Part shown: one piece after another, positions 7,312 through 58,416 of the stretch
How the letters are laid out: the number at the start of each line of letters is the position of its first letter
Position numbering within the stretch: the stretch's first letter is position 1
Notes under the pieces: generated by a model
What the model was told of the DNA's origin: nothing
The model's input: the letters and a program-made list of their open reading frames with translations, nothing else
The model's database searches: none
From: Chitinophaga sp. SYP-B3965
GTDB lineage: Bacteria; Bacteroidota; Bacteroidia; Chitinophagales; Chitinophagaceae
DNA length: 64,000 bases
Assembly: GCF_009647655.1 (NCBI RefSeq)
Contig: NZ_WJFD01000001.1
Location: 2,356,001-2,420,000, forward strand
Reading direction: 5' to 3'
Position numbers and translations under genes: made by a program

Positions 7312-7412
7312 GTATGCCGTGTTTAAATAGATAGTCTGGAAAAAAACAAAATCTCCCAAAATAATCTAATTTTATTTTACAACCTTTATCTATCATTCAC
7401 AAAAACCGATTT

Positions 7413-7988: not shown

Positions 7989-7992
7989 GCAT

Positions 7993-10365
7993 TTATTCCA
8001 TTTTCAGGCTCTTTACCGGGTTTGCTATTGCTGCTCTTATCGATTGATAACTTACTGTGAGCAATGCTATCATCACGGATAAAAAACCGGCTAATGCAAA
8101 TACCCACCATTCAATATCCACCCGATAGGTATAACTTTCCAGCCACTTATTCATGCCCCACCATGCCAGTGGTGTTGCTACTAAAAATGAGATAAGTACC
8201 AGCTTTACAAAATCCTTTGATAACAAAGTGGTGATGCTGGTTACAGATGCGCCTAATATTTTCCGTATGCCAATTTCTTTCACCCTGTTTTCCGCCATAT
8301 AGGTGGCCAGGCCAAACAAGCCCAGGCATGAAATAAATATAGTGAGTCCGGCAAATAAAGCAGCCAGCGTACCCTGGAGTTTTTCATTCTCAAAGTTCCT
8401 GGCATATGCTTCATCCACAAACTTCATATCAAAAGGATATTCAGGGTTGAGTTTTCTAAAAATAGCTTCTGCCCCATCCAGGTTTTTTGCCGTAGCATTA
8501 TTCCCGTTTAGTTTTATCTGCATCACCTGGAAACTCATGAAGCGGCTCTTTGCTCCGCATATCAACAAGGGGTTTGTGGGCTCATAAGGGCTGGTCAATA
8601 TAAAATCTTTGATCACCCCTACAATGTGCCAGTCAATGCCAAGATCCCCTACTACTCTGCCGATCGGGTCTTTGAACTTCATTAGCTTCAGCGCAGATTC
8701 ATTAATGATAAGCCCTGTTGAATCCGTAGGGAATTTCTTCAGATTGAAGTCGCGGCCCTGAACAAATTGCAAACCAACCGTAGTACCCAACCCTTCATCA
8801 GATAAAAAACGATCGAAAGATGTTTTATCGTTCGGATCCTTTCCTTCCCAGCTCTGTCCCCATCCGTTACTCCATCTATCCGTGATCGGAGAATTGGTTT
8901 TGGTAATTGATTTCGCTATACCCGATGAAAGCAATTCATTTTTTATCAGTTCGTAGTTCTTAGGTATATCCCCCGTCATGAAATGATAAACGAGATTATC
9001 TTTGTTATATCCCATTTCCCGTTCCCGGGCATAATCTATTTGCTGCTTTACGATGATCGTGCAGATGATAAGAATAGTAGCAAATGTAAACTGCAACACC
9101 ACCAGTACTTTCCTGGGCGTTACCAATGCATTTGCCTTTTTAAATGTGCCTTTTAATACTTTAACAGGCTGGAAAGAGGAAAGAAAGAAGGCGGGATAAC
9201 TACCAGCCAGCAAACCTGTGATGAGGATGAACCCGGTAAATATAACCCATGTATAGATACTGCGATAGTTGATGAATAGTTCCTTATCCGTCAGCTGGTT
9301 GTAGGCCGGCAGGCTTAGCTGAACAATAATAATAGCTACAATACCTGACAGCAAAGCGAGGAAAACAGATTCCCCGATAAACTGACTGATCAGCGAACTT
9401 TTCTGCGCACCCACTGCTTTCCGTATCCCTACTTCCTTCGCTCTTTTTTCACTTCGTGCGGTACTCAGGTTCATAAAATTGATACATGCTATCAATAATA
9501 TAAACACTGCAATGATCCCAAACAGTTTTACGAATGTGATGCGGCCTCCGCCTTCCACACCATTGCTGAAGTTTGAATACAAATGCCAGCGGCTGAGGGG
9601 ATACATAAACAGTTCCCATTTCATCTTTTTTGCGTCCTCATGGTATTGCTGCCTTAATACTTTTAACTTAGGGGCCACGGAAGCATAACTTGCATTGGGC
9701 TTTAACATCACATAAGTAGGAATGCTGTTGTCATTCCAGCCCAGGTCCTGCCCTTCACCATATTTAAAATACGACCAGGGCACCAGGTATTCAAAACCTA
9801 ACCTTGTATTGGGAGGCGGATCTTTCACAATGCCGGTAACCGTAAAATTATCCTTATTCTGCACCTTTACAATTTTGCCCAGTGCATCTTCGTCCCCGAA
9901 TAAGATCTTAGCAGTGGATTCAGTCAGCACCAGTGAATGTATATCATTCAGGGCTGTGAAAGGATCACCTTTCAGCATGGGAAAGCTGAACATTTGCAGA
10001 AAACCGGTATCCACCCTGATACCCGATCGCTGTACCTTTTTATCCCCCACTGAAAGCAGAAAATCACTTGACTTTACCCTTACAGTACGTTCTACTTCAG
10101 GCAGGTCCTTTTCCAGCGCAGGGGCCAATGGTTCAGGCACGGAATTCCAGGTAGAGATCTCACCTTCATATGGTACCCGGTTCCACACCTGGTAGATCCT
10201 GTCTTTATTTTCATGAAACTCATCGTAGTCCACTTCGTCTTGTATCCACAGTAAAATGAGTATCGCTGCGGACATGCCAATGGCCAATCCTGTAATATTG
10301 ATCAGGGAAAAGCCTTTGTTGCGCAAAAGATTCCGGTAAGCGACCTTGAAGAAGTTTTTAATCAT
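7993..10365 (-). CDS. MacB/FtsX-type ABC transporter permease, no ATPase nearby
   Basis: A roughly 790-residue permease with the double MacB_PCD + FtsX architecture. There is an N-terminal TM helix (LINITGLAIGMSAAILILLW), a periplasmic core domain, three TM helices with the ARSEKRAKEVGIRKAVGA coupling motif, then a second core and a second FtsX block with ENRVKEIGIRKILGAS. The start is placed at the ATG at 10365 (MIKNFFKVAYRNLL...), the standard N-terminus of the family; upstream residues are not family-like. Such permeases export peptides or lipids, or act mechanically, together with a MacB/LolD-type ATPase, but none is encoded here. Confidence 0.88.
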   Translation of the reverse strand: MIKNFFKVAYRNLLRNKGFSLINITGLAIGMSAAILILLWIQDEVDYDEFHENKDRIYQVWNRVPYEGEISTWNSVPEPLAPALEKDLPEVERTVRVKSSDFLLSVGDKKVQRSGIRVDTGFLQMFSFPMLKGDPFTALNDIHSLVLTESTAKILFGDEDALGKIVKVQNKDNFTVTGIVKDPPPNTRLGFEYLVPWSYFKYGEGQDLGWNDNSIPTYVMLKPNASYASVAPKLKVLRQQYHEDAKKMKWELFMYPLSRWHLYSNFSNGVEGGGRITFVKLFGIIAVFILLIACINFMNLSTARSEKRAKEVGIRKAVGAQKSSLISQFIGESVFLALLSGIVAIIIVQLSLPAYNQLTDKELFINYRSIYTWVIFTGFILITGLLAGSYPAFFLSSFQPVKVLKGTFKKANALVTPRKVLVVLQFTFATILIICTIIVKQQIDYAREREMGYNKDNLVYHFMTGDIPKNYELIKNELLSSGIAKSITKTNSPITDRWSNGWGQSWEGKDPNDKTSFDRFLSDEGLGTTVGLQFVQGRDFNLKKFPTDSTGLIINESALKLMKFKDPIGRVVGDLGIDWHIVGVIKDFILTSPYEPTNPLLICGAKSRFMSFQVMQIKLNGNNATAKNLDGAEAIFRKLNPEYPFDMKFVDEAYARNFENEKLQGTLAALFAGLTIFISCLGLFGLATYMAENRVKEIGIRKILGASVTSITTLLSKDFVKLVLISFLVATPLAWWGMNKWLESYTYRVDIEWWVFALAGFLSVMIALLTVSYQSIRAAIANPVKSLKME

Positions 10366-44584: not shown

Positions 44585-44775
44585 TGGTTTTTAACATAGG
44601 TTTCACAATGTTAAAATTAATAGGGAATCAGGTGTAAATCCTGAGCAGACCCGCTACTGTAAGTTCTATTGCAAACACATTTGACATTCTCTTGCCACTG
44701 TTTTTAGTGAAATAAAAATGGGAAGGCCGTCAAAAAAGTGAGAACAAGCCAGGAGACCTGCCAAACGCACATACA
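44585..44775 (+). ncRNA. Cobalamin (adenosylcobalamin-class) riboswitch
   Basis: The conserved elements appear in order: TAGGGAATCAGGTGTAAATC (about 44621-44640), CTGAGCAGACCCGCTACTGT, GCCACTG (44694-44700), GGGAAGGCC (about 44720-44728), and the B12 box GCCAGGAGACCTGCC at 44748-44762. It sits 113-300 bp upstream of the BtuB gene. No T-tract terminator follows, so control is probably translational. High B12 should shut off the operon down to the terminator at 53436. Confidence 0.95.
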
Positions 44776-44887
44776 TTTTAAAGCTTTCGAGGATGGGGCT
44801 TTGAATACAACTTGCACTGAAATTTTCAGCGTCTATTTGTCTTCGTATGTCATCCGGTATTTATCGGTGGGAATTAATTATTAGTAT

Positions 44888-46897
44888 ATGTCAAACGCAT
44901 TAAAAACGTTGCTGATAACGTTTTTGGCATTTATTGGCACGGACCTGCATGCCCAGCATACACGTGTGGATACTTTGCGGGGTGTTACTATTTATACATC
45001 AGGTTATAAAGAAGTGATCCCCTCACAAAAGCTCTCCGGTGAAAACTTAAAGAGTTTAAACAGCTTTTCTGTAGCAGATGCCATACGGTATTTTGCAGGT
45101 GTACAGGTAAAGGATTACGGCGGTATAGGAGGTTTAAAAACCGTAGATATGCGTAGTATGGGCACCAACCATATGGGCGTATTTTACGATGGCATTCAGT
45201 TGGGTAATGCACAGAACGGGCAGATAGACCTTGGGAAATTTTCCATGGATAACATTGAATCCATCTCTGTTTACAATGGTCAGAAAAGTGAGATCTTTCA
45301 ACCTGCCAGGGATTATGGTTCATCCGGCACTATTTACCTGCGGAGCCGTAAGCCGGTGTTTGATTCTTCTAAAACAACAAACTTTAAAGGTGTTTTTAAA
45401 ACGGGCTCGTTTGATTTAATAAACCCCTCACTCCTGCTGGAGCAAAAGCTCACAGAGAACGTGCATTATTCCTTCAGCAGCGAATATGTAAAATCTTCCG
45501 GTCGTTATCCATTCCGTTATAAGAGGGTATTTCACGGTTCTAAAGACATTGCCTGGGATACAACGGCTATGCGGCAAAATGGAGATATAAATGGACTGAG
45601 GCTTGAAAGCGGGTTATATGGAAATATAGATCGGGGGTTCTGGAATGCCAAGGCTTACTTCTACAATTCAGAAAGAGGTATACCAGGTGCCATCGTTAAT
45701 AACGTCTGGAAGCGCGCGCAAAGGCAGTGGGACAGGAACTTTTTCCTGCAGGGTTCTTTTCAGAAAAATGTTGTCAAAGGTTACGATCTCCAGGTAAATG
45801 CGAAGTATGCCAACGATTACATGCGCTACCTGAACCCTGATACTACTTTGTTGTATATCGATAACAATTTTCAGCAGCAGGAATGGTATGCTTCTGTGGC
45901 CAACAAGTATAGCCTGTCCGATAAAATTGATATCAATCTGTCTACAGACTTCCAGTATAATACGCTTAACTCTAATCTGGATGGTTTTGTATTTCCGAAA
46001 AGGTTTACTTCCCTGGTAGCATTAGCCGGAGCGGCAGACTTCGGAAAGGTAAAAATGCAGGCAAGTGTTTTGGGCACGTTTGTAGATGAACGTGCTGCCG
46101 TTAAAGCGCCTTCCAAAAATGAAGTGACCCCGGCGTTTTTCATCTCTTATAAACCCTTTTCCAAAACGGATCTTAACATCAGGGCCTTCTATAAGAACAT
46201 TTTCCGGATGCCTACTTTTAATGACCTGTATTATACAGACATTGGTAATATCAACCTGGAGCCGGAATACACCCACCAATACAACCTCGGGTTTGCATAT
46301 CATAAAAGTTTTTCAGGCTCGGTTCTGAGTGAGTGGCAGTTACAATCAGATTTTTATTTCAACCAGGTTACCAATAAAATAGTAGCTGTTCCTAAAGGCA
46401 GTGGTATGTACCGCTGGATGATGATGAATATCGGGGATGTGGAGATAAGAGGGATGGAAATTGTATCCGATCAGACCTTCTCTTTACCAGCTGGTGTTTT
46501 ACTGAATCTAAGGGCTTCTTACACTTACCAGAAAGCACAGGATTATACAAAGCGCAAAAATCCTGAACTGCAAAAGATCACCTACGGAGGGCAGATCCCT
46601 TACATCCCCTGGCATAGCGGTTCGCTTATCTCAAGTATACAGTACAGATCCTGGCGGCTCAACTATAGCTATGTATATGTAGGTGAGCGTTATCATAATT
46701 CAGCCAATATACCGGAGAATTATGAACAGCCCTGGTACACCAGCGATCTCTCCGCCTCAAAGAACTTTCAATTGAAAAGATACCGCTTCAGGGTTTCCGG
46801 AGAGCTGAATAATGTTTTCAACCAGGATTATGAAGTGGTGATGAACTACCCCATGCCGAAACGAAATTATAAGATCATTTTATCTGTTGAACTATGA
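44888..46897 (+). CDS. btuB: TonB-dependent vitamin B12 receptor
   Basis: A 669-residue outer-membrane receptor, without STN or carboxypeptidase-like extension, as in BtuB. The signal peptide ends near DLHAQ (residue 23). The plug runs from about residue 30 to 150 (LNSFSVADAIRYFAGVQVKD; MRSMGTNHMGVFYDGIQLGN). The barrel ends in SVEL. The cobalamin riboswitch immediately upstream and the BtuG-like gene overlapping its stop (ATGA at 46894) assign it to cobalamin import. Residues forming the B12 site cannot be named from this sequence alone. Confidence 0.92.
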   Translation: MSNALKTLLITFLAFIGTDLHAQHTRVDTLRGVTIYTSGYKEVIPSQKLSGENLKSLNSFSVADAIRYFAGVQVKDYGGIGGLKTVDMRSMGTNHMGVFYDGIQLGNAQNGQIDLGKFSMDNIESISVYNGQKSEIFQPARDYGSSGTIYLRSRKPVFDSSKTTNFKGVFKTGSFDLINPSLLLEQKLTENVHYSFSSEYVKSSGRYPFRYKRVFHGSKDIAWDTTAMRQNGDINGLRLESGLYGNIDRGFWNAKAYFYNSERGIPGAIVNNVWKRAQRQWDRNFFLQGSFQKNVVKGYDLQVNAKYANDYMRYLNPDTTLLYIDNNFQQQEWYASVANKYSLSDKIDINLSTDFQYNTLNSNLDGFVFPKRFTSLVALAGAADFGKVKMQASVLGTFVDERAAVKAPSKNEVTPAFFISYKPFSKTDLNIRAFYKNIFRMPTFNDLYYTDIGNINLEPEYTHQYNLGFAYHKSFSGSVLSEWQLQSDFYFNQVTNKIVAVPKGSGMYRWMMMNIGDVEIRGMEIVSDQTFSLPAGVLLNLRASYTYQKAQDYTKRKNPELQKITYGGQIPYIPWHSGSLISSIQYRSWRLNYSYVYVGERYHNSANIPENYEQPWYTSDLSASKNFQLKRYRFRVSGELNNVFNQDYEVVMNYPMPKRNYKIILSVEL

Positions 46898-48030
46898 GAA
46901 TAGCACTGCTATTACTGGTTTTTGTGGCTGCATCATGCAGGAAGGACATAGAAGTCTTCACCAATGAAGATACTTCCCTGGACTCTTCTGCGCTAAATGG
47001 CTTTGCTGGCTTTTACCTGCTGAACGAAGGTAATATGGGCAGTAATAAAAGCACGCTGGACTTTTTCAACTATGCTACCGGTGAATTTAAAAGGAACATC
47101 TATGCTGCCATTAATCCAACCGTACCCAAGGAGATGGGAGATGTAGGGAACGACATCGCTATCTATGGCAACAGGCTTTATGCAGTGATCAATGCTTCCA
47201 ATAAAGTAGAAGTGATGGATGCAAGAACTGCGCGGAGGATCGGGCAGATTGAGATCCCTAATTGCCGTTATATAAAGTTCGATAAAGGATTTGCCTATAT
47301 CACTTCTTACGCAGGCCCTATTGAAATCAATCCAAATTATGCGCAAAAAGGTTATGTAGCCAAAGTAGATACCGCCACGCTTGCAGTAGTGAACAAATGT
47401 ATTGTGGGTTACCAGCCGGATGGCCTTGAAATAACCAATGGCAAGATCTACGTAGCTAACTCAGGAGGTTATATGGGCGCGGGCAGTACGGAGAAGTATG
47501 AGAGAACTGTTTCGGTAATTGACCTGGCTACTTTTAAAGAGGATAAACGGATAGATGTGGCGTATAACCTTCACCACATAAAGGCCGATCAACGTGGTGA
47601 TCTTTGGGTAACATCCAGGGGTGATTACAAACAGCTTCCTTCCAGGCTCTATTTTATAGACAAAACCCAGCAGAAAGTAACCGATACTTTACCTATTGCT
47701 GTGAGTAATTATTTCCTGGACGGAGACTCCCTCTATGTATACAGTACAGAGTGGAGTTATGTCACTTATTCCAATGTTATTACCTATGGCATTGTTAATA
47801 CCCGTACGCATGCTGTGGTTACCCGTGCATTTATTACGGATGGAACGGATAAAGAGATAGAAATCCCTTATGGAATTATGGTAAACCCCGTTACGAAAGA
47901 GATCTATGTTACTGATGCCGGTAACTATGTTTCCCCCGGAATATTATACTGTTTTACAAAGGAAGGTAAAAAGAAATGGAGTGTTCGTACCGGTGATATA
48001 CCTGCCCATTTTGCCTTATTGCCTAAATGA
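46894..48030 (+). CDS. BtuG-like surface beta-propeller lipoprotein, B12 capture
   Basis: A 378-residue lipoprotein (lipobox AASC at residues 12-15) whose mature part is a YncE/DUF5074-type seven-bladed propeller. Recurrent blade motifs include FYLLNEGNMGSNKSTLDFF, GNDIAIYGNRLYAVINASNK, PDGLEITNGKIYVANSGG and GIMVNPVTKEIYVTDAGNY. In Bacteroides, BtuG of this type binds B12 with very high affinity on the cell surface and hands it to BtuB. The 4-bp overlap with btuB supports a stoichiometric complex. It is orthologous in context; binding is inferred. Confidence 0.85.
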   Translation: MRIALLLLVFVAASCRKDIEVFTNEDTSLDSSALNGFAGFYLLNEGNMGSNKSTLDFFNYATGEFKRNIYAAINPTVPKEMGDVGNDIAIYGNRLYAVINASNKVEVMDARTARRIGQIEIPNCRYIKFDKGFAYITSYAGPIEINPNYAQKGYVAKVDTATLAVVNKCIVGYQPDGLEITNGKIYVANSGGYMGAGSTEKYERTVSVIDLATFKEDKRIDVAYNLHHIKADQRGDLWVTSRGDYKQLPSRLYFIDKTQQKVTDTLPIAVSNYFLDGDSLYVYSTEWSYVTYSNVITYGIVNTRTHAVVTRAFITDGTDKEIEIPYGIMVNPVTKEIYVTDAGNYVSPGILYCFTKEGKKKWSVRTGDIPAHFALLPK

Positions 48031-49511
48031 TAAAAAAATATATGAAAAGAATCGTTTTTCTACAACTACTGTCAGCCGTTATTTTCCTTACCTCCTCCTG
48101 CAGGAAAGAGCAATATCAGGCCCCCAGTATTTCCGGGGTGGGTTCAGATACGATCGTACTGAACATTGGTGATAAAATGGTGCTGGCACCCAGCATCACC
48201 AACACTAAAGGTAACGGTTATACATGGCTGGTGAATAAAAAGGAAGTTGCCACTGGTCAGCTCAATTATACTTTTGAGGCTAAAGAGTCCGGGAATTTCG
48301 AAGTTACTTTTAAAGTGAATAATAAAGGCGGCACGGATGAGCAGTCTTTTAAAATAGAGGTAGAAAAGGTTATTGCTATATCGATAGCTGATCAGCTCAC
48401 CGTTCCCATGTGTGATGTAATTGATATTGCGCCCACAGTTACCGGACCTGATCGTGCTGATTACGAGTACCAGTGGTCTATTGGAGATTCAGTGATCGGG
48501 AAAACCCGCAACCTTAGCTTTATCTCCCCTTCCGCCGGTACCTATGCGCTTACGCTTCGTGCTACCGCTGGTAAACAGACCACCACATCCACCCGCAACA
48601 TTACGGTGAGTACGGCACAGTATGTACAAAATGCTTATACGGTATTGGAATATGCTCCTGCCCCGGGCAAATTGCATAACTGGGCTATTATAGGAAACAG
48701 GATATTGTGGGATCTGGGTTATGAGTATCCGCTTCCTTACAATGATTTTTTAGCCAAAGCAACAGAGAAAAGGAAAACGGACGTTAGTACTTCTCTTTTT
48801 GTAGGTTCCTGGGGCGGATATGCAACGTTTAAGTTTGATCATACTGTTGTCAATGTTCCCGGCAAACCCGATCTGGAGCTGACCGCTTTTTTCTCCAACC
48901 GTGATCTGCCGGCTGTTTATGTAGCCTATGACTTTAACAAAAATGGCAAACCGGACGATAATGAGTGGTATGAAACTAAAAATGCAGATTTTGGATTAGA
49001 AGATACACTGCATTATGAAATGACCTTTACGTACAATAAAACGGAAACGGATACCAGAAGAGTATATACCTACTACAACTGGACAGATAACAAAACCCCG
49101 CCTGTACAGGGCGAGATCCTGACCAACAAAACCTTCAGCAGTGCTACCGTTATGGGGAAACTCTCTACCAGAGGTTTCTTTCCCGGTTACTATATGGATA
49201 TCAATACGAAACAGATGGTCTTACTGGATGGATGGAAGAGTTCATTCTCCCGTAAAGGAAAACGCATGACAAAGGACCTCACCGGCGCCGTTTCGTTTTC
49301 ACAGAAGCTGAATATCGATATCGATATGGCGGTGAATGATAAAGGAGAACCTGTTCAATTGCCGGGGATCAATTTTGTGAAGGTCAGAAAAGCGATCTAC
49401 GTTATTCAACAGGATTTTATCAGCAATGGTGGCAAAATGACGGATTTCAACATGGATGAAGAGCGCATGTTACAGGTGGGTGCTATACTGGACAAACATC
49501 TTATCAAATAA
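48027..49511 (+). CDS. PKD-domain surface lipoprotein of the B12 operon, copy 1
   Basis: A 494-residue lipoprotein (lipobox TSSC, residues about 21-25). Two PKD/Ig-like domains (about 40-125 and 130-200) are followed by a C-terminal domain of about 290 residues with GSWGGYATFKFDHTVVNVPG and a calcium-loop-like DFNKNGKPDDNEWYE. It shares this C-terminal domain with the lipoprotein at 50537. The start overlaps the previous stop (ATGA); an ATG at 48042 is an alternative. It is likely a second surface B12-binding or glycan-like docking protein, possibly equivalent to the B12-binding lipoproteins of Bacteroides B12 loci; this is inference. Confidence 0.8.
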   Translation: MIKKYMKRIVFLQLLSAVIFLTSSCRKEQYQAPSISGVGSDTIVLNIGDKMVLAPSITNTKGNGYTWLVNKKEVATGQLNYTFEAKESGNFEVTFKVNNKGGTDEQSFKIEVEKVIAISIADQLTVPMCDVIDIAPTVTGPDRADYEYQWSIGDSVIGKTRNLSFISPSAGTYALTLRATAGKQTTTSTRNITVSTAQYVQNAYTVLEYAPAPGKLHNWAIIGNRILWDLGYEYPLPYNDFLAKATEKRKTDVSTSLFVGSWGGYATFKFDHTVVNVPGKPDLELTAFFSNRDLPAVYVAYDFNKNGKPDDNEWYETKNADFGLEDTLHYEMTFTYNKTETDTRRVYTYYNWTDNKTPPVQGEILTNKTFSSATVMGKLSTRGFFPGYYMDINTKQMVLLDGWKSSFSRKGKRMTKDLTGAVSFSQKLNIDIDMAVNDKGEPVQLPGINFVKVRKAIYVIQQDFISNGGKMTDFNMDEERMLQVGAILDKHLIK

Positions 49512-49525
49512 AAAAAGCCGGGCAA
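49511..49525 (+). repeat. Left arm of a 15-bp perfect inverted repeat flanking the DUF4465 gene
   Basis: AAAAAAGCCGGGCAA, exact reverse complement of 50499-50513. It begins on the last base of the copy-1 PKD gene's stop codon. It can also fold locally as CGGG-CAA-CCCG (49519-49529), so two structures compete. Confidence 0.75.
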
Positions 49526-49557
49526 CCCGAATTTATATACCATCTAAAAACAGATTT

Positions 49558-50493
49558 ATGAAAGTAACCCTTTTTAACAAAACGCTCATAGCAGCGATTA
49601 CTTGTCTTGTTGCAGTTACATCCTGCTCCAAGCAAAACGATTTGTTGGACCCGATTTCACAGCAAGAAACCCTGAAGAACGAGCAAAGTACCCTGAAAAA
49701 ACTGACAACCTTCTATACCATCGATTTTGAAGGTATAGGGAGCAGCTATATGGCTGGTAATACTTCCTATGGAGACAATGCCTATTCTTCCTGGGGCGGC
49801 ACCCAAATTGCGCCCTACGTACATTCACCCAGCAATTTGAGGTTTGCCGTTAAAGGTGCCGGCGGAGGCACTCCTGTTGAATTTTGGGACGGAGGATTTG
49901 TTGTTTCCAACTGGAACTACAAATCAAATATTTCCGGAACATCCGGCGATTGGTGGTACTCGTACCTCAATCAGTGCAGTGTTTATTCCGGCACGCATGG
50001 TGCTAATAACGGAGGCTCCGGCGGCAGCAGCAATTTTGCAGTTATGTTTGGTTACGTAGATGCCGCTAACTCATCTTTTGCTACCCGCCCCACACTGAAT
50101 TTCACATCTGGCAGCAGCGGCATCATAGAGGGCATGGAAATATGTCTCTCCTCTTATACCTACGGGGTGATCATGAACGGTAATACATTTGGTTCCGGTA
50201 CAGCAACACCGCTTTCAAATATAGCCGGAGGAACAGGTTATCTCAAATTACAGGCATATGGTTTTAATGGTGCTTCAGCCACCAATGGTGGTGCCCCCGT
50301 TGAAATCTATGTGGCCAGGTATAATAACTTCCTGCCTGTTGCAGGCCCTTTAACCAGCTGGACTTATTTCGACCTGTCTGCCTTAGGTAATGTTACCCGT
50401 GTTGAGTTCAACTTTGTTGGTAACGATACAGGTAGTTTCGGGCTGAATACGCCTGCCTATATCTGCATGGACAATGTTGAGGTAACCCAGTAA
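49558..50493 (+). CDS. DUF4465-domain lipoprotein of the B12 operon
   Basis: 311 residues from the ATG at 49558; the upstream in-frame start at 49456 lies inside the previous gene and gives no signal peptide. The signal sequence ends with a lipobox (AVTSC, residues 15-19). The mature protein is a DUF4465 beta-sandwich (YTIDFEGIGSSYMAGNTSYG; SSWGGTQIAPY; SNFAVMFGY; TWTYFDLSALGNV-like end), rich in Gly, Ser and Tyr. The family is often found near btuB/btuG in Bacteroidota and is of unknown function. It is bracketed by the 15-bp inverted repeat. Confidence 0.82.
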   Translation: MKVTLFNKTLIAAITCLVAVTSCSKQNDLLDPISQQETLKNEQSTLKKLTTFYTIDFEGIGSSYMAGNTSYGDNAYSSWGGTQIAPYVHSPSNLRFAVKGAGGGTPVEFWDGGFVVSNWNYKSNISGTSGDWWYSYLNQCSVYSGTHGANNGGSGGSSNFAVMFGYVDAANSSFATRPTLNFTSGSSGIIEGMEICLSSYTYGVIMNGNTFGSGTATPLSNIAGGTGYLKLQAYGFNGASATNGGAPVEIYVARYNNFLPVAGPLTSWTYFDLSALGNVTRVEFNFVGNDTGSFGLNTPAYICMDNVEVTQ

Positions 50494-50498
50494 TAGTA

Positions 50499-50513
50499 TT
50501 GCCCGGCTTTTTT
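50499..50513 (+). repeat. Right arm of the 15-bp perfect inverted repeat
   Basis: TTGCCCGGCTTTTTT, exact reverse complement of 49511-49525. It looks like the 3' half of a terminator stem with its T run, but its pairing partner lies on the far side of the DUF4465 gene. Confidence 0.75.
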
Positions 50514-50536
50514 AATAATATAATTAATTCGATAAA

Positions 50537-52060
50537 ATGAACAATCAATACAGACTTCTGGCTTTTCTAAGCTGCATTTCACTTTTAATAACCAGCTGCG
50601 GAAAAAAAGATGCTGAACTTGCAGCACCTGCACCGGTTATAGCTGGTCTTGAATCAGAGTATTATGTGGTGGTAAAAGAGAACATCGTACTTGTTCCTGC
50701 CGTTGAAAACAGCGTAGATTCCCTTGTATGGGTAGTGAATGGGCAAAGGGTAGCAAATGCCCTGCAGTATACTTTTCAGGCGCCTGCTGATCCTGGAAAC
50801 TACAGCCTGATCCTCAGGGCTTACAATGCCGGTAACATTGTGCAAAAAGTTGTACAAATAACTACCGGGCGTTACTTAAACTGGCAAACAAGCGCCAATA
50901 AGATCCTGGTAATTGAGGCCTCTTCCAAATTTGCGAATAAGACTGATCTGAAATGGGAAATATTGTCCGCTCCGTCTGAACGTTACAGGCTGGCTGATAC
51001 CACCAATTCTAAAAAGGCACTATTCACTACTGTGGACAGGGGCACTTACAAACTGAAAATTTCTTCCGGCGATCTGATAGATACACTGCTTATAACGGTG
51101 AAGCAATCAGATAAGATACTATCTCCTTTTATAGCAAAGGTGTTCGATTATCTGCCTGCTCCTGGTCAGTTTGTAAACGAACTGCCAAAATATAACGCAG
51201 GTGATACCTACGAAACGATGATGGGTAAAGTAAACAAAGAACTGGTGGGAGGAGATGCTAATACCATCACATTAGGTGGCTGGGGTGGTTATGTAGTGGT
51301 AGGGTTTGACCATACTATTGTAAATGTACCCGGCCTGCGCGATTTCCGGATCCATGGAAATGCATTCGGCGCCAATGCCAATCCCCGTCCAAATGCACCA
51401 TTCGGTGGAAGCTGTGAACCTGGCGTTGTGATGGTGGCGTACGACAAAAATAAAAACGGCAAACCTGATGAAGATGAGTGGTATGAAATAAAGGGCAGCG
51501 GCAATTTTTCTGCTGAAAGTGAGCCCTGGTATGCCGCAGCTGTTACTGCTAAAAATGACGTGCGCACTTTCCGCACTTACGAAATGACTTACAATCGTCC
51601 TGCAACGGAAACACCGGATGCTACTCCCCCTACGGGCATCAGCATCAGTAATTATATCCGCTGGACGGATAACCAGGGACAGCAGGGTTACAAAGTAAAA
51701 AATACGTTCCATGCACAGAGTTATTATCCTGCATGGGTGAAAGATGAAAAGATCATTTACAAAGGCATCCGCCTCGCCCGCAATGGTATAGAAGAAAGCG
51801 GGCAAGGTAGTTACTATGTGCTGTATGCATTCAAATACGGATATACAGACAACTATCCTAATCCGCATGACAACTCCGGTATTGATATTGACTGGGCCAT
51901 TGACAAAAACGGCAATAAAGTAGTGCTGCCAGGTATTGACTTTGTAAAAGTATACAATGGTGTAGACCAGGAAAACGGCTGGCTGGGAGAATCATCTACC
52001 GAGATCTCACGTGGGGAAGACCTGCACTTGTTAGGCACTAAAATCGAAACAATAAAATAG
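50537..52060 (+). CDS. PKD-domain surface lipoprotein of the B12 operon, copy 2
   Basis: A 507-residue lipoprotein (lipobox ITSC near residue 17). PKD/Ig-like domains (about 30-110 and 115-195) precede a C-terminal domain with GGWGGYVVVGFDHTIVNVPG and AYDKNKNGKPDEDEWYEIKG, plainly homologous to copy 1 (48027-49511). The two are separated by the DUF4465 gene. The duplicated gene may bind different corrinoids or different surface partners. It starts 23 bp after the right arm of the inverted repeat. Confidence 0.8.
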   Translation: MNNQYRLLAFLSCISLLITSCGKKDAELAAPAPVIAGLESEYYVVVKENIVLVPAVENSVDSLVWVVNGQRVANALQYTFQAPADPGNYSLILRAYNAGNIVQKVVQITTGRYLNWQTSANKILVIEASSKFANKTDLKWEILSAPSERYRLADTTNSKKALFTTVDRGTYKLKISSGDLIDTLLITVKQSDKILSPFIAKVFDYLPAPGQFVNELPKYNAGDTYETMMGKVNKELVGGDANTITLGGWGGYVVVGFDHTIVNVPGLRDFRIHGNAFGANANPRPNAPFGGSCEPGVVMVAYDKNKNGKPDEDEWYEIKGSGNFSAESEPWYAAAVTAKNDVRTFRTYEMTYNRPATETPDATPPTGISISNYIRWTDNQGQQGYKVKNTFHAQSYYPAWVKDEKIIYKGIRLARNGIEESGQGSYYVLYAFKYGYTDNYPNPHDNSGIDIDWAIDKNGNKVVLPGIDFVKVYNGVDQENGWLGESSTEISRGEDLHLLGTKIETIK

Positions 52061-52065
52061 TAAGG

Positions 52066-53415
52066 ATGAAAAAGAGTTATTTGGCATTTGGGGCGTTCAT
52101 CGCCATCGTGGCAGTATCGTGTTCTAAAAAAGATGCAACAGAGCCGCTGCAGGCTCCTGAGGCAGGCATCGTGAATGTGCTTTCTCAAAACACCGTAGCA
52201 CAGGAAGATACCTTAATTTTCAAAGTGAAGGCCACTCCCGGTAGTACTTTTGCATGGTCGGTAGACAACAAAGACGCAGCAGTTAAAGACTCTATCTTTA
52301 AATTTGCCTCTCAGGACCTGGGTGAACATACGATTGCTGTAACGGCTTCCAGGAATGGTGTAACAGCCTCTTCCCAGGCAAGCGTTACGGTATATGGAAA
52401 ATACAAATTCGGCACATTTGTGCTGAATGAAGGGAACATGACATCGGAGAACGGCAGCCTGACCTTCATCAGCCCCCAGGGCGTAGTGACCGATAGCGCC
52501 TATTCTAAAGCGAATAGTACAGACCTTGGAAATGTGGCACAGGACCTATACATCCACAATAAGAAGATCTACATCATTTCTCAAAACGGTAAAAAGAACG
52601 CCGTAGGAAATTCATTTGCGAATGACGGCCTGCTGGTAGTAGCCAATGCAGAAACGCTTAAAAAAGAAGCCGCTTATAATGATGAGCTGGCCACACTTAG
52701 CTGGCCTACGCACGTAGCAGTGCTCAATGAGGAAAATGTGATCATCCGCGATAACAGTGGTTTATACCGATTCAACACTACCACCAAAGCACTCACGTTC
52801 ATCAAGGGCTCCAGATCTGCTGCGAAGCTCACGATGGCTGTTTCAAATAATAAATTATTTGCTGCCGCCGGTACAAAAGTATATGTGATTGAGCCTAATA
52901 AGGATACACTCACCTATGGTCTGGATATGAAAGCGGCTGTTAGTGGTGTGGTAAGGGCCAGTGACGGTAATATCTGGATCTCCACTACCGGCTCTCCTTC
53001 TAAAATTTCCAAGATCAATTACAGGGATTATTCTGTAATAAAAGCCAACGACATCACCACAGGTAGCGTGAGTGCTGGTTTTGGGGCTACTCCGGGCATT
53101 ACCGCAAAAGGTGACACGCTTTATTTCAGTGGCGCCGGCACCAAAATATACCGGCATGTTTTCAGTATGAACTCCACGGAGTTTATGGTGGATGCTAAAA
53201 CAATGGTGGAAAACGCGGGTATAGTGTACAACAATATAGCCGTGCACCCGCTTACAGGTGAAGTTTACCTGAATACGATCAAAGCCTACGGTCTGGACTA
53301 TCTGATCAATAGTATCAGTGTGTTTAACTTTAGTAACGGCACTAAGCTAAGTGCCAACTATAAGAACTATACTAATTTCCCTGCAGGTATTTTCTTTACC
53401 TGGAATTATAATTAA
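52066..53415 (+). CDS. Second BtuG-like propeller lipoprotein with N-terminal PKD domain
   Basis: A 449-residue lipoprotein (lipobox VAVSC, residues about 15-19). It has an N-terminal PKD/Ig-like domain (about 30-110) and then a DUF5074-type propeller (FGTFVLNEGNMTSENGSLTF; GNVAQDLYIHNKKIYIISQN; GVVRASDGNIWISTTG; NIAVHPLTGEVYLNT). This is the same fold and motifs as the BtuG-like protein at 46894, but with the added PKD module. It starts 5 bp after copy 2. It probably supplies a second high-affinity corrinoid-capture protein. Confidence 0.82.
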   Translation: MKKSYLAFGAFIAIVAVSCSKKDATEPLQAPEAGIVNVLSQNTVAQEDTLIFKVKATPGSTFAWSVDNKDAAVKDSIFKFASQDLGEHTIAVTASRNGVTASSQASVTVYGKYKFGTFVLNEGNMTSENGSLTFISPQGVVTDSAYSKANSTDLGNVAQDLYIHNKKIYIISQNGKKNAVGNSFANDGLLVVANAETLKKEAAYNDELATLSWPTHVAVLNEENVIIRDNSGLYRFNTTTKALTFIKGSRSAAKLTMAVSNNKLFAAAGTKVYVIEPNKDTLTYGLDMKAAVSGVVRASDGNIWISTTGSPSKISKINYRDYSVIKANDITTGSVSAGFGATPGITAKGDTLYFSGAGTKIYRHVFSMNSTEFMVDAKTMVENAGIVYNNIAVHPLTGEVYLNTIKAYGLDYLINSISVFNFSNGTKLSANYKNYTNFPAGIFFTWNYN

Positions 53416-53435
53416 AAGAACTGTTATTTAGAGAT

Positions 53436-53467
53436 AAGAGCCCCCGGAATCAACCGGGGGCTTTTAA
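53436..53467 (+). terminator. Terminator of the B12 operon
   Basis: GCCCCCGG / CCGGGGGC stem, 6-base AATCAA loop and a TTTTAAATT tail, 20 bp after the last gene's stop codon. Confidence 0.9.
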
Positions 53468-53523: not shown

Positions 53524-54078
53524 GTGAATACTATAGCTGCTTTGAAACAAGGTAATCTTTTGGTATTTAATGAATTATATTATTCCTGGCACCAAAAGAT
53601 CTACCATTTTATTCTTCGGAAAACAAAGTCTTCTTTCATTGCAGAGGAGGTGACACAACTTACTTTCATCAAATTCTGGAACTACCGGGAAAGTCTTGCA
53701 GACAACCTCGATGTACAACTACAACTGTTTCGGATCTCCCGTACCACCCTGATCGATTTCTTACGCAAGGAAAGCATCTATAAAGAAAAGGTGATCCACA
53801 TTATAGACCGGTATACGCTGCCATCGGAAGACCTCTGGGGTAAACTGGCGGAAAAGGAATTACAGCATAAACTTGCCCATGCGCTGGAAGAAATGCCCCC
53901 CATGCGCCGCAAGGTGTTTGAAATGAGCCGCTTTAAAGGCATGAGTCATCAACAGATCGCACATGAGCTTTCCTTATCGTCCAGAACAGTAGAAGCACAT
54001 ATTTTCCAGGCCATCAAGCAGATAAAACATTATTTCGGCATGCTCCTCCCCCTCCTGGCCTGGCTTTTCCCATTCTGA
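53524..54078 (+). CDS. ECF RNA polymerase sigma-70 factor
   Basis: A 184-residue sigma factor. Region 2 is LLVFNELYYSWHQKIYHFIL and EEVTQLTFIKFWNYRE; region 4 is MPPMRRKVFEMSRFKGMSHQQI with the HTH LSLSSRTVEAHIFQAI. It has the hydrophobic C-terminal tail GMLLPLLAWLFPF. The start is GTG at 53524: the in-frame stop at 53509-53511 leaves no other option. It begins right after the B12 terminator and leads a sigma-fecR-susC-susD-GH74 unit. Confidence 0.9.
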   Translation: MNTIAALKQGNLLVFNELYYSWHQKIYHFILRKTKSSFIAEEVTQLTFIKFWNYRESLADNLDVQLQLFRISRTTLIDFLRKESIYKEKVIHIIDRYTLPSEDLWGKLAEKELQHKLAHALEEMPPMRRKVFEMSRFKGMSHQQIAHELSLSSRTVEAHIFQAIKQIKHYFGMLLPLLAWLFPF

Positions 54079-54150
54079 AAATATTTTTTTGTTTCGACTA
54101 AGTAGTCTGCCTCTCACAAACGTATTACTTATCTATCAGCCGTATACAAC

Positions 54151-55176
54151 ATGATAAACGATGAATTACTGACACGGTTCTTTAACGATCAATGCACGCC
54201 CGAAGAAGCCCGTGAGGTAGCCACATACCTGCAGGAACATCCGGAAGTGCTGGAGAAATATTTGCCGGAAGAAGAATTTTTCCAGTTACAGGAGAAGGAC
54301 AGTCTTCCGAAAACTGTTTCCCAACAATGGCTGAAAAATATTCACCGGCAAACCGTATCAGCCAATAGCCGCAACAAATGGGTTAAACGGCTGTCCATTG
54401 CCGCAGTAACTGCCGGCGTGCTGATCGGAGGAACCCTATTACTGGTTGATAAGAAAGCGGCAACGGTTACCAGTGAAACAGTGATCACCATTCCGGCGGA
54501 ACAACAGGAAAGGAAAGAAAACACCGGCAGCAAAACCATGGTCATTGCATTACCGGATGGTTCTGTAGCACAGCTGCAACCGGCTGCCGGCATCGTATAT
54601 AATAAACAGTTCAGAGAAAACAGGACCATATACCTGACAGGAGAAGCGGATTTTACCGTAACAGCCGATCAATTACACCCTTTTGTTGTTTATAGCAGCG
54701 AATTATCAACCACGGTTCTGGGCACCTTTTTCCATGTGAAGGCTATTCCCGGGGAAGACATGATCACCGTACGACTGAATACCGGTAAAGTATTGGTACA
54801 GGGCATCACGGATAAAAAGACAGTGCTCACACCTGGCAAAGAGCTTCGTTATTACCGCAAAACCGGGAAAACCATCGTAGCCAATTTCAATACTATGGGT
54901 ACGGATGTACTGGTAAAAGCAGGAAACAACGGAGACAGTCATGCTAAGCCCGACTGGTATAAGTTTAACAATCAACCAATGGCGCAGGTACTCAATCAGC
55001 TGAGCAACTATTACGGTGTAGCCATCTATTATTATCCATCAGACGTGACGGAGATCTATTTTGATGGCAAGTTCGAAAAGACAGATTCACTGGAGAAGAT
55101 CCTGACGGACTTAACACTTCCCAATAATCTGAAGCTTATCCGAAACGACAGCGGATTCATTATTAAGAAGAAATAA
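54151..55176 (+). CDS. FecR-family anti-sigma factor (DUF4974 C-terminal domain)
   Basis: A 341-residue regulator with an N-terminal sigma-binding helix bundle (LLTRFFNDQCTPEEAREVATYL), a TM helix about 79-98 (LSIAAVTAGVLIGGTLLLV), a FecR domain (IALPDGSVAQLQPAAGIVYN) and DUF4974. It is 72 bp after the sigma gene and 87 bp before susC. The susC that follows has no STN domain, so the usual signal donor is missing from this locus. Confidence 0.9.
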   Translation: MINDELLTRFFNDQCTPEEAREVATYLQEHPEVLEKYLPEEEFFQLQEKDSLPKTVSQQWLKNIHRQTVSANSRNKWVKRLSIAAVTAGVLIGGTLLLVDKKAATVTSETVITIPAEQQERKENTGSKTMVIALPDGSVAQLQPAAGIVYNKQFRENRTIYLTGEADFTVTADQLHPFVVYSSELSTTVLGTFFHVKAIPGEDMITVRLNTGKVLVQGITDKKTVLTPGKELRYYRKTGKTIVANFNTMGTDVLVKAGNNGDSHAKPDWYKFNNQPMAQVLNQLSNYYGVAIYYYPSDVTEIYFDGKFEKTDSLEKILTDLTLPNNLKLIRNDSGFIIKKK

Positions 55177-55211
55177 TTTTCCATACTATATCGCTCTATT
55201 CCTTAAAAGGC

Positions 55212-55225
55212 GCAAAGGCGCCGGG
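55212..55225 (+). other. Hairpin in the fecR-susC spacer
   Basis: GGCGC-AAAG-GCGCC, a short GC-rich stem-loop about 40 bp before the susC ATG, with no T tract. It is the same kind of element, in the same place, as the hairpin at 12448-12463. Confidence 0.35.
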
Positions 55226-55263
55226 GGCTTGCTATGCCCTGCATTAAAAAATAAATTTCAGTT

Positions 55264-58200
55264 ATGAAGATGTTCTATCGACCAAAATGGCTCCTGCTAT
55301 TATGCCTGCTGATATCAGGCGTTTCCATGTTTACACAGGCACAAGTTCGCATGCAGGTAACCGGCACCGTACGTACAGACGAGGGGGAACTCCTGCCCAA
55401 TGCTTCCGTTGTAGCGCTGAATGAAAAAACAAAATATACTGCCGGCGTTATTACAGACAGCAACGGCGTATTCCGTTTCTCGGGGTTGCCACAGGAAGGC
55501 AAATATTTACTCAGCGTTTCTTACATGGGCTTTGAAACACAACAGTTCAGCAACGTTCAGCTTAAACCAGGTGCTACATTAACGTACTCTGTACGCCTGA
55601 TCAAAACGGTATCTGCCCTGAACGACATCGTGGTGATAGGTTATGGCACTGCCCGGAAAAAAGATGTAGTTGGCGCTTTCAACGTGATAACGGTGAAAGA
55701 AGCCGGCGCTGTAAATGCTACCAATCCTTCGCAATTGCTTATCGGTAAAGCCGCCGGTGTACAGGTACTGCAAAGCAGTGGCAGTGCAGGTGCGGATGCA
55801 CAGATCATTATCCGCGGTACCGGTAGTTTTACGGACATCAACCCGCTGTATGTGATCGACGGCATACAGGGTACCAAAAATCTTTTTAACACCATCAATC
55901 CCCAGGATATAGAAAGCATCACTATCCTGAAAGATGCTTCTTCCACCGCTATCTATGGCTCCGCCGCCGCCAATGGTGTGGTGATCATCACCACAAAAAA
56001 AGGAAAGGCCGGGCCACCCCGCGTAAGCTTTACTTCACAATGGGGCATTGCTAAAGCCTGGAAGCAACTGGACCTGCTTAATGCAGCCCAGTATGTGGAT
56101 GCGTTGAAAGATCTGGCGGCCACCAAGAGTGCAGTACTGCCTGCCAAATTTAATACCCCGGCGGTATTACAGGATAGTACTGACTGGCAGGATGCTATTT
56201 TCCGCAATGCACTTGTATCTGAAAACGATCTGAACATCAGCGGCGGTGGTGAAAAAGTGAGCTACTCCTTATCTGCCACTTATATCAATCAACAGGCCAT
56301 CTTAACCGATGCTACCAACAAAAGGTTCCAGGCGCGTGTGGGCCTGGAAGAAAGCCTGGGGCGCTTCCGGTTTACGCAGAACCTTATATTCAGGCAGTAT
56401 GTGGGCAATGGTAATTATGCCAATATCCTTAATGCGATTCAGTACGCACCATATAAACCTGTACTGGACCCGTCTATACAGGGAGGGTATTCCATTCTCT
56501 CCAACATAGACGACTATAGCAACGCCAGCAATCCCCTGCAGGATATTGCCATGAGGAGCCAAACAAGCAAATCACTGGCTTTTTTCCCGCAGCTGTCCGC
56601 TGAAGTGCGTATCATAGACGGACTGAAATTCCGTTCTCAGTTTGCAGCAGAAGTGAACACCAGCCGGAGCAACAGTTATCAGAAACAGTACCAGTCGTCC
56701 AATTTTCTGAATCAGGCCCGCCAATCCACGCTCGTTTTTTCGGAGAACTCTTATTACATGCTGGAAAATTATTTGTCGTACGACAAAATATTGGGTAATC
56801 ACCAGTTCTCTCTGATCGCCGGGCAAAGCTATATTGATCCCGGGCAAACCAACAGTTCCGGCATCAGGGGTACGGGTCAGCCGAACGATAATATCACCAA
56901 CATTACTGTAGCTGCTTCCCAGGCTGTTACCAGCGGTTATTCCAACTACGCCCGTCCCTCTCTGATCTCTTATTACGGCCGGCTCAACTATACTTTTGAT
57001 GATAAGTATATACTGTCTGCCAGCTATCGCAGAGATGGCGCTTCCAACTTTGGTGCTAATAACCGCTTTGGCAATTTCGCCGCAGGAGGTTTGTCGTGGC
57101 GCTTTTCAGAAGAAACTTTTATTAAAAAAGCATTCCCTGTATTATCTGATGGAAAGCTGAGTGTAAGCTGGGGACAAACGGGTAACAACAATATTCCCAA
57201 CTTCCTGAACACCGCCAGAACATACCAGGGCACACCTGCAGGCGCGCTGGTATATTCCTTTGGCAGCACGGAAACATTTGTATCCGGTACTTCCATCACT
57301 ACGGTAAGCAATCCTGATCTGAAATGGGAGAAAACCAATCAGACAGATATAGGCATCGACCTGGCATTTCTAAACAACCGCCTCACGGTAGAAGCCGATT
57401 GGTATAGCCGCAAAAGTACCGGGCTGCTGGTTACCACCATGCTACCCGCCAGTATTGGTGTAAGCCCTACTGGTGCGCAACCAAGAAAAACGGTCAATGC
57501 TGCAGATGCACAAAATAAAGGCTTCGAACTCGCCATCGGTTTTAAGGATAAGATCAATCATAACTTCAGCTTTTCTGTCAATGTAAACGGATCTATTAAC
57601 CACAACGAAGTATTGTCTTTAGGAGACCAGTTTTCCGCACCTATACAGGCAGGTGCCTTTGCACCTGTACCGGCTACCACCTATACTGCTGCCGGTTATG
57701 CTATTGGTTCTTTTTATGGCTATCGCTTAGATCATGTGGCTAAAGATGCAGCAGAAGTAGCGGCCCTTGATCTGGAAGCCCAGAAGAAAACAGGTATGCC
57801 CAATGCTAAATACCAGGATGGATTATTACCGGGAGATTTTATCTATAAAGACATTGACGGCGATGGCGTAGTTACCGCAAAGGACCAGGAAGTATTAGGC
57901 AATGCTATTCCAAAATATATTTATGGCATCAATGCCGGCATCACGTATAAAAACTTTGACCTCAACCTGGTGTTATCCGGTATCAGTGGATTGAAACTCC
58001 TCAATGGCTTAAAATTAAATACCAGCGCTATGGCCACTGGTCATAATGCATCTACCGAGCTCCTTAACAGATGGCGCAAACCCGGTGATGTAGCGGCTTT
58101 GCCCAGGTTAGGTCAGAATGCCACCGGCAGTGGTAACCTCCGCCCATCAGACTGGTGGCTGGAAGATGGCAGTTACCTGCGTTTGAGGAACATTACCATT

Positions 58201-58416
58201 GGTTACAGCGCTCCCTCCACGATGTTAAGCAATATCACCAAAGGCACCGTTAAATCACTCCGCATTTATGTGGCTGCGCAAAACCTGATCACCCTCACTA
58301 ATTATACCGGCTACGATCCGGAAGTGGTGGGCGACTACATTTTTGCGCGTGGTATTGACCAGGGCCAGGTGCCGCAGCCAAGAACACTCCTGGCAGGTAT
58401 TCAATTAGGGTTTTAA
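55264..58416 (+). CDS. SusC/RagA-family TonB-dependent transporter lacking an STN domain
   Basis: A 1050-residue transporter. A signal peptide (to about residue 27, ending TQAQ) is followed at once by the carboxypeptidase-regulatory-like domain (VTGTVRTDEGELLPNASVV), the plug (GYGTARKKDVVGAFNVIT; ILKDASSTAIYGSAAANGV) and the barrel ending LGF. It is shorter than the STN-bearing SusC proteins here because the STN module is absent, although a sigma/FecR pair sits directly upstream. The downstream GH74-like protein suggests a beta-glucan or xyloglucan oligosaccharide as ligand. Confidence 0.93.
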   Translation: MKMFYRPKWLLLLCLLISGVSMFTQAQVRMQVTGTVRTDEGELLPNASVVALNEKTKYTAGVITDSNGVFRFSGLPQEGKYLLSVSYMGFETQQFSNVQLKPGATLTYSVRLIKTVSALNDIVVIGYGTARKKDVVGAFNVITVKEAGAVNATNPSQLLIGKAAGVQVLQSSGSAGADAQIIIRGTGSFTDINPLYVIDGIQGTKNLFNTINPQDIESITILKDASSTAIYGSAAANGVVIITTKKGKAGPPRVSFTSQWGIAKAWKQLDLLNAAQYVDALKDLAATKSAVLPAKFNTPAVLQDSTDWQDAIFRNALVSENDLNISGGGEKVSYSLSATYINQQAILTDATNKRFQARVGLEESLGRFRFTQNLIFRQYVGNGNYANILNAIQYAPYKPVLDPSIQGGYSILSNIDDYSNASNPLQDIAMRSQTSKSLAFFPQLSAEVRIIDGLKFRSQFAAEVNTSRSNSYQKQYQSSNFLNQARQSTLVFSENSYYMLENYLSYDKILGNHQFSLIAGQSYIDPGQTNSSGIRGTGQPNDNITNITVAASQAVTSGYSNYARPSLISYYGRLNYTFDDKYILSASYRRDGASNFGANNRFGNFAAGGLSWRFSEETFIKKAFPVLSDGKLSVSWGQTGNNNIPNFLNTARTYQGTPAGALVYSFGSTETFVSGTSITTVSNPDLKWEKTNQTDIGIDLAFLNNRLTVEADWYSRKSTGLLVTTMLPASIGVSPTGAQPRKTVNAADAQNKGFELAIGFKDKINHNFSFSVNVNGSINHNEVLSLGDQFSAPIQAGAFAPVPATTYTAAGYAIGSFYGYRLDHVAKDAAEVAALDLEAQKKTGMPNAKYQDGLLPGDFIYKDIDGDGVVTAKDQEVLGNAIPKYIYGINAGITYKNFDLNLVLSGISGLKLLNGLKLNTSAMATGHNASTELLNRWRKPGDVAALPRLGQNATGSGNLRPSDWWLEDGSYLRLRNITIGYSAPSTMLSNITKGTVKSLRIYVAAQNLITLTNYTGYDPEVVGDYIFARGIDQGQVPQPRTLLAGIQLGF

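Follow-up and report, generated by a model that had tools for sequence, protein, structure and literature searches.

A riboswitch-headed operon in Chitinophaga sp. SYP-B3965, probably for corrinoid scavenging, with a conserved BtuH-family lipoprotein that seems to lack the B12 site

Introduction

In Bacteroides thetaiotaomicron (B. theta) the binding of B12 by BtuG, BtuJ and BtuH, the lid mechanism of uptake and repression of the genes have all been reported (PMC6143338, PMC10404256, PMC8941943, PMC12751083). Operon 1 of that organism (BT_1486–1491) encodes BtuK1, BtuK2, BtuH1, BtuB1, BtuGH and BtuJ1 (PMC12751083). Here we describe a six-gene operon from Chitinophaga sp. SYP-B3965, located in a stretch of 64,000 nucleotides of contig NZ_WJFD01000001.1 that was analysed as a whole (the window). 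An original prediction, made from the letters of the window alone, had read it as a surface B12-capture unit of one transporter and several lipoproteins, and this description agrees with our results, the function being judged from homologs. It had also called the unit expanded, with two BtuG-like propellers, against a premise that known Bacteroides loci pair BtuB with a BtuG. The composition of B. theta operon 1 shows this premise to be too narrow.

The Chitinophaga operon resembles B. theta locus 1 in its classes of parts, in the BtuB1 branch to which its transporter belongs and in its cobalamin riboswitch (PMC12751083). It differs in having a single riboswitch, no BtuG–BtuH fusion and another gene order, in carrying one DUF5074 propeller at its end where B. 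theta has two BtuK proteins at the start, and in an additional BtuH-family protein, here termed H', which lacks the B12 contacts. Since the PKD lipoproteins belong to the BtuH family and the DUF4465 protein to BtuJ, every accessory class has already been described (PMC8941943, PMC12751083, PMC13398666). Judged by homology, the locus is thus built of families known from gut Bacteroides, and the proposed novelty of two BtuG proteins falls.

The operon and its known components

Very probably the locus is a cobalamin-repressed operon for outer-membrane corrinoid scavenging, with B12 binding, hand-over and repression carried over by analogy from B. theta. This reading rests on the RF00174 riboswitch upstream, on the matches of BtuB, BtuG, BtuJ and BtuH to B. 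theta corrinoid proteins of solved structure and on the retention of the BtuJ and BtuH contacts. The features are listed in Table 1. All six genes lie on the same strand, joined by overlaps or short gaps, and a riboswitch-headed six-gene unit had been correctly recognized in the original prediction, although the aptamer begins 17 bases before the start given there. The aptamer, 108 nt from btuB, is the sole match at or above the gathering threshold in the window, and the terminator scan found no terminator-like site on the + strand between the two. At the other end the predicted terminator corresponds to a real inverted repeat, but its T tract is weak and the scan reported it for the − strand only. 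A promoter scan was uninformative, with 17 sites against 20.7 expected from shuffling. Each of the five accessory proteins has a lipobox-like cysteine after an N-terminal hydrophobic stretch, as had been claimed; these calls were made by eye, without a signal-peptide program, and the surface location is a predicted one. The proportion of nonsynonymous differences (pN) is well below that of synonymous differences (pS) in all six genes when the window is compared with six congeners, pS being near saturation.

Table 1 Features of the corrinoid operon (positions are those of the window)
Feature	Position	Strand	Evidence and remarks
Cobalamin riboswitch aptamer, RF00174	44568-44779	+	104.9 bits (gathering threshold 31.5), E 3.4e-25
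btuB, TonB-dependent corrinoid transporter, BtuB1-like, 669 aa	44888-46897	+	Plug and barrel; best Protein Data Bank (PDB) match 8blw_A
btuG, propeller lid lipoprotein, 378 aa	46894-48030	+	8blw_B (BtuG1), 148 bits; start overlaps btuB stop
H', PKD lipoprotein of the BtuH family lacking the B12 contacts of BtuH2, 494 aa	48027-49511	+	PKD domains; match to 7biz
btuJ, DUF4465 lipoprotein	49558-50493	+	PF14717, E 1.5e-31; ATG at 49558 chosen by us, start in open reading frame (ORF) list 49456
btuH, canonical BtuH domain, 507 aa	50537-52060	+	H domain of 8blw_B, 204.8 bits
Propeller 2, PKD and DUF5074 propeller lipoprotein, 449 aa	52066-53415	+	PF16819, 231.9 bits (whole protein)
Inverted repeat, likely intrinsic terminator	53439-53462	+	9-bp stem with 8 G-C pairs, G+C-rich; weak T tract

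The BtuB protein matches B. theta BtuB1 at 456 bits, the next PDB chains following at 101 and 86.5 bits, and falls below the cut-off of the NCBIfam TonB-B12 equivalog (90 versus 599.7 bits). Its BtuG partner is closest to BtuG1, other BtuG chains scoring about 62 bits. In BtuG2 the loop Asn54–Thr64 helps to hold B12 (PMC10404256); the window BtuG has the NEGN loop and tyrosines at the places aligned with Tyr316 and Tyr335 of BtuG2, and a further tyrosine aligns, in weak stretches of the alignment, with Trp194. The DUF4465 protein matches BtuJ2 (9i2l) at E 1.5e-54, and the BtuJ2 contacts Tyr134, Tyr199, Asn291, Thr292 and Tyr295 are each kept in all seven orthologs; we found no functionally relevant difference from BtuJ1 or BtuJ2. 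The btuH product, which scores 117.4 bits against BtuH2 (7biz), retains the Gln, Asn, Phe, His, Tyr510, Trp577 and Leu contacts of BtuH2, with Tyr in place of Trp511. From these alignments the DUF4465 protein is a member of the BtuJ family and the second PKD lipoprotein is BtuH. Like BtuH2 (BT_1956), both PKD lipoproteins of the window combine PKD domains with a C-terminal BtuH domain, but the contacts are kept in BtuH and not in H'. The two had been described as paralogs, which is true in that both are of the BtuH family, yet they are not equivalent. A comparison of each lipoprotein with the known B12-binding lipoproteins, suggested in the original prediction, thus gives matches for BtuG, BtuJ and BtuH, while propeller 2 falls in the DUF5074/BtuK family and H' matches BtuH2 without keeping its contacts.

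The second propeller belongs to the DUF5074/BtuK family

Scored on the propeller region with the Pfam DUF5074 model, propeller 2 gives 233.3 bits (model positions 2–353) and BtuK1 326.8 bits, both near full-length; the BtuG proteins scored for comparison, BtuG1, that of the window and one from Bacteroides, reach 50, 71.9 and 60.6 bits. When the window type is left out and the profile is drawn from 14 other DUF5074 proteins of the genus, the scores are 129 bits for BtuK1, 54 for propeller 2, 37 for the BtuG of the window and 29 for BtuG1, and a 35-protein BtuG profile gives 27 bits for propeller 2 and 296 for BtuG1. The profile of propeller 2 and its relatives matches BtuK1 (9s6c) at 1e-41; the 14 other DUF5074 proteins carry most of this match, and a profile from the seven window-type proteins only does not distinguish BtuK1 from the window BtuG or from BtuG1 (16–17 bits for each). 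A quick tree of 72 rows places 30 BtuG rows beyond a branch with support of 100 and propeller 2 on the DUF5074 side; a window-type row that had been trimmed badly (L135, with 18% of the columns; L, G and C numbers are our labels for loci, genomes and contigs) groups with the BtuG rows. As the DUF5074 scores, the two larger profiles and the tree agree, propeller 2 falls, on sequence grounds, in the DUF5074/BtuK family, apparently as a deep branch of its own, and its assignment as a second BtuG is rejected.

Several results are contrary to this placement. A search with propeller 2 as a single sequence detects chains of BtuG3 (E 3e-5 to 7e-5) and, up to E 10, neither BtuK1 nor BtuK2. Its model is of modest confidence (mean predicted local distance difference test, pLDDT, 73.6); Foldseek places 4r5o (BT1487, which is BtuK2) first at 2e-19, but BtuG structures follow at about 3e-15 to 5e-12 and BtuK1 at 6e-14 to 2e-13, so that the fold match is unable to separate BtuG from BtuK1. 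The BtuK1 and BtuK2 structures, which share the DUF5074 propeller (the Pfam score was run on BtuK1), show 14–22% identity in the Foldseek alignments. Of the two B. theta proteins, BtuK1 was reported to bind cobalamin, with no binding seen for BtuK2 (PMC12751083); the BtuK2 result is unfavourable to a capture role. Of the 47 residues common to BtuK1 and at least 11 of the 14 other DUF5074 proteins, 20 are absent in all seven window-type orthologs and one more is absent in six of the seven. With these residues gone, propeller 2 may or may not be a B12 binder.

The possibility that propeller 2 is a siderophore lid like XusB was also considered. XusB too is a surface propeller lid on a TonB transporter, but by its description it is a DUF4374 protein (PMC13142918), and the DUF5074 loci seen in the genus adjoin a cobalamin riboswitch, btuB, btuH or CobT–CobS genes; this identity was therefore rejected.

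Conservation within the genus

Close orthologs of propeller 2 (78–83% identity) occur in seven of 36 same-genus genomes, that of SYP-B3965 included. The six-gene order is the same in five of the six relatives with such an ortholog, and RF00174 lies just upstream of the block in all six, which argues that the arrangement is not due to chance. In the sixth relative (L040; G016 contig C7, 5637-7738) the riboswitch and the last four genes are kept and btuB–btuG are gone apart from a btuB remnant, and this genome has another btuB–btuG–btuH locus (L108). L040 is a natural uncoupling of the lipoproteins from the transporter.

Three of the 36 genomes lack a btuB match at E 1e-20. Across the 34 btuB loci of the genus (the window; L036–L039, L041, L045–L047 and L049; L096–L119), btuG stands directly after btuB in every case. 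A DUF5074 propeller is present in 19 of these loci, a DUF5074 fragment in one and neither in 14; since 19 of 34 have both propellers, two propellers with one btuB are a usual arrangement. Elsewhere in the genus the DUF5074 gene accompanies a riboswitch and btuH (L042–L044, L053), follows a riboswitch on its own (L054) or is grouped with a TonB receptor and CobT–CobS (L048, by Pfam; L202, by homology); for L050–L052 and L055 the last layout is suggested by similar gene sizes only.

H', a BtuH-fold protein seemingly without the BtuH B12 site

H' matches BtuH2 (7biz) at E 1.2e-15 with phmmer, and 7biz is also the top Foldseek match of its model (mean pLDDT 80.6; E 3e-25; template-modelling score 0.41, with several hinged domains). 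The contacts examined are the BtuH2 residues named in PMC8941943, for which the 7biz chain index is, from the alignment, the BtuH2 number minus 100. No row among the 22 of H' (the window and 21 further loci) retains Gln333, His476 or Trp577, and all of them lack the Tyr510–Trp511 loop. Two rows have Tyr at position 476, which a canonical Flavobacterium BtuH also carries. The state of Asn399 and Phe401 depends on the alignment: gaps in seven of seven H' sequences in one, Asn in three and Phe in six of the 22 rows in the other. Among the canonical BtuH partners 21 rows are unbroken; all of these have the Gln, Asn, Phe, His, Tyr510 and Leu578, and 20 have Trp577, position 511 being Tyr or Phe; the L133 partner, split into two ORFs, was left out of the contact count and the tree and kept in the layout counts. 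H' therefore seems to have the BtuH fold without the known BtuH B12 site, and is intact and conserved in Chitinophagaceae, Pedobacter and Bacteroidales.

The distribution was obtained by a scan of named genomes with seven H' sequences, which gave 88 relatives, of which 80 loci were kept. Loci were selected for patterns resembling H', which biases the sample; the flanks were 9 kb, the cut-off 75 bits, and locus edges may hide genes. H' occurs in 21 of the 80 loci, at 51–71% identity, in Chitinophaga, Filimonas, Pseudoflavitalea, Niastella, Gynurincola, Paraflavitalea, Terrimonas, Pedobacter, a Bacteroidales metagenome-assembled genome and Proteiniphilum. All 21 also hold a canonical BtuH; 18 hold BtuJ, 15 hold BtuB and BtuG, and 12 hold a DUF5074 propeller. 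The six H' loci with no BtuB–BtuG in the flank (L122, L124–L127, L138) each have RF00174 shortly before H' and are riboswitch-headed lipoprotein blocks without a transporter of their own. Among all 80 loci, 68 hold BtuB and BtuG, 35 of them with a DUF5074 propeller as well, 47 hold BtuB and BtuG with at least two BtuH-type genes, and 22 hold everything.

BtuH-type rows were defined by a score of at least 150 bits and a length below 620 aa, with the L133 halves dropped (n = 147). When Tyr is allowed for His476 and Phe for Tyr510, 77 rows keep at least three of four tested contacts, 66 keep at most one and four fall between. The 66 site-less rows comprise the 22 H' rows, 42 second or third copies in 21 Flavobacteriaceae loci and two others (L146, L188), and every locus with a site-less row also holds a canonical copy. 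The H' rows form one side of a branch with a Shimodaira–Hasegawa-like approximate likelihood-ratio support of 100 in a quick tree of 105 of the 147 rows (Flavobacteriaceae thinned); the program warned of long branches meeting, and the tree does not establish a single origin of the site-less copies. No mention of BtuH copies without a B12 site was found in the accessible parts of the BtuH literature, subscription journals lying mostly outside the search.

The Flavobacteriaceae copies stand in tandem triplets of BtuH-type genes, the first with the B12 contacts and the second and third without (L143, L145, L147–L154, L156–L162, L165–L168). In Bacteroidales-type loci (L172, L174, L175, L182, L185, L187, L192–L194, L199) BtuB–BtuG–BtuH and a DUF5074 gene are followed by proteins of very large size (about 990–1870 aa) that match the BtuH domain. 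In Phocaeicola abscessus (L144:7594-11189) btuG and the canonical btuH are separated by a row of three BtuH-like lipoproteins, of which two are nearly identical at the N-terminus; all three are below the cut-off and outside the count above. In Chitinophaga sedimenti (L133:5792-13003) btuB, btuG and btuH are each divided between two ORFs, through either errors in the sequence or genuine breaks, and H' and btuJ are undivided.

Proposed mechanism and alternative explanations

In our view the sequence of events would be as follows. When cytoplasmic cobalamin is low the riboswitch would leave the message on, and BtuB, the BtuG lid and four further surface lipoproteins would be made. BtuJ, BtuH and perhaps the BtuK-family propeller would capture corrinoids, either on the cell surface or on vesicles, and deliver them to the BtuG lid, which would close on BtuB and release its ligand for TonB-driven uptake; the return of cobalamin would shut the operon. 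The most likely role of H', and this is a guess, is that of a non-binding subunit beside BtuH and BtuJ. A docking role is plausible, since in the BtuB1G1 structure the BtuG lid carries the docked H domain and it has been proposed that BtuH might promote opening of the lid (PMC10404256). Against a stable BtuH–BtuBG assembly, BtuG2 was not robustly enriched on immunoprecipitation of BtuH2 in B. theta (PMC8941943). The fact that the company of BtuH and BtuJ is commoner than that of BtuB–BtuG in the 21 loci favours a role in an array or on vesicles. More broadly, site-less BtuH proteins may form a separate, widespread class of lipoproteins of Bacteroidota corrinoid loci, standing beside normal BtuH, not binding B12 at the BtuH site and serving some other function in corrinoid capture, for instance docking on the BtuBG lid, prising it open or taking part in a BtuH–BtuJ array able to stand without its own transporter; we offer this as a tentative proposal with somewhat less than even prospects.

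Other explanations bear on the propellers and on the block as a whole. That two BtuG-type lids serve as alternative capture arms on one BtuB appears quite improbable to us: both proteins are propeller lipoproteins, and the Foldseek and single-sequence searches of propeller 2 would suit such an idea, but the DUF5074 scores, the two profiles and the tree all speak against it, as does the fixed place of btuG behind btuB when the DUF5074 gene shifts place or lies apart. It is possible, if on balance unlikely, that the H'–BtuJ–BtuH(–DUF5074) block arms outer-membrane vesicles or the wider surface and that only BtuG works on BtuB. The six named loci in which the block directly follows its own riboswitch are in keeping with this, as is the finding that BtuK2, BtuH1, BtuJ1 and BtuL were the most vesicle-enriched in B. 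theta, where only BtuJ vesicles fed cells (PMC12751083); the presence of btuB–btuG beside the block in the other 15 of the 21 loci is not. Vesicle-type capture and the scavenging operon are compatible and not exclusive.

Two further explanations concern H'. Decay of a btuH copy might be suspected, as five tested contacts are lost in every H' row and H' is the fastest-changing of the six genes (62–70% identity to congeners, compared with 68–88% for its neighbours). Nevertheless, its reading frame is open in 22 of 22 rows, and pN is 0.17–0.23 against a pS of 0.61–0.77 (six congeners; pS near saturation). The H' rows also hold together on their branch at the stated identity across several families, and there are residues invariant in H' that BtuH lacks. 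We regard decay as highly improbable, and with pN below pS and the frame intact it was rejected. Those residues, many of which are invariant in seven of seven H' sequences and different or absent in seven BtuH sequences, three tryptophans among them, could instead mark a new ligand site, for another corrinoid form or another molecule, replacing the BtuH site. This seems unlikely to us, as they may be structural or form protein contacts. The interpretation that we prefer for H' is still the non-binding subunit.

Host genome and DUF6580

The host genome (7.14 Mb, 15 contigs) contains three cobalamin riboswitches, which precede the present operon, an operon with a TonB receptor (L094) and metE (L095). 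The L094 operon, on contig C14 with its riboswitch at L094:5347-5576, has the order TonB receptor–DUF6580–BtuF-like–phosphatase. Three matches to B12-binding domains and the lack of any CobS match in the whole genome fit a B12 user that scavenges. The original prediction had noted no cobalamin biosynthesis gene in the window. The genome has no match to a FecCD (BtuC) permease, which counts against the scavenging reading as regards the inner-membrane step.

FecCD is without a match in 12 of the 23 same-genus genomes searched, that of SYP-B3965 included. DUF6580 (PF20221) proteins are about 200 aa long and membrane-like, with genes at L094:7607-8206 (+), L139:9794-10372 and L202:7896-8492. Each of the 12 FecCD-less genomes has, by coordinates, a DUF6580 gene with a cobalamin riboswitch, cob genes or a BtuK-like gene in its vicinity; the four of the 23 without a linked DUF6580 gene (G007, G010, G013, G014) all have FecCD, and seven have both. 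The 23 genomes are related and are not independent cases. On this co-occurrence DUF6580 may stand in for the BtuC permease. No publication containing the name DUF6580 was found in the literature searched.

Neighbouring features

Downstream of the operon an extracytoplasmic function sigma factor gene starting at 53524, a FecR-type gene and a 1050-aa ORF form a separate unit (window 53524-58416); by eye the 1050-aa ORF reads like a SusC-type TonB receptor. In L139 a 550-aa ORF (6424-8076) separates btuH from the DUF5074 gene; it matches MACPF D3 weakly, below the Pfam cut-off.

Conclusions

With the BtuG duplication set aside, the interest of the locus stays with the conserved site-less BtuH protein, the transporter-free blocks and the DUF6580 lead. 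Chitinophaga would use the B12 kit of gut Bacteroides (BtuB, BtuG, BtuH, BtuJ and a propeller of the DUF5074/BtuK family) as one riboswitch-headed operon, and its use of the same capture kit suggests that B12 competition of this kind extends beyond the gut. The tie of Pfam DUF5074 to BtuK and to corrinoid loci provides a lead to the function of a domain of unknown function. A conserved protein with the BtuH fold and seemingly no B12 site offers a way to ask whether lipoproteins of this type have non-binding roles.

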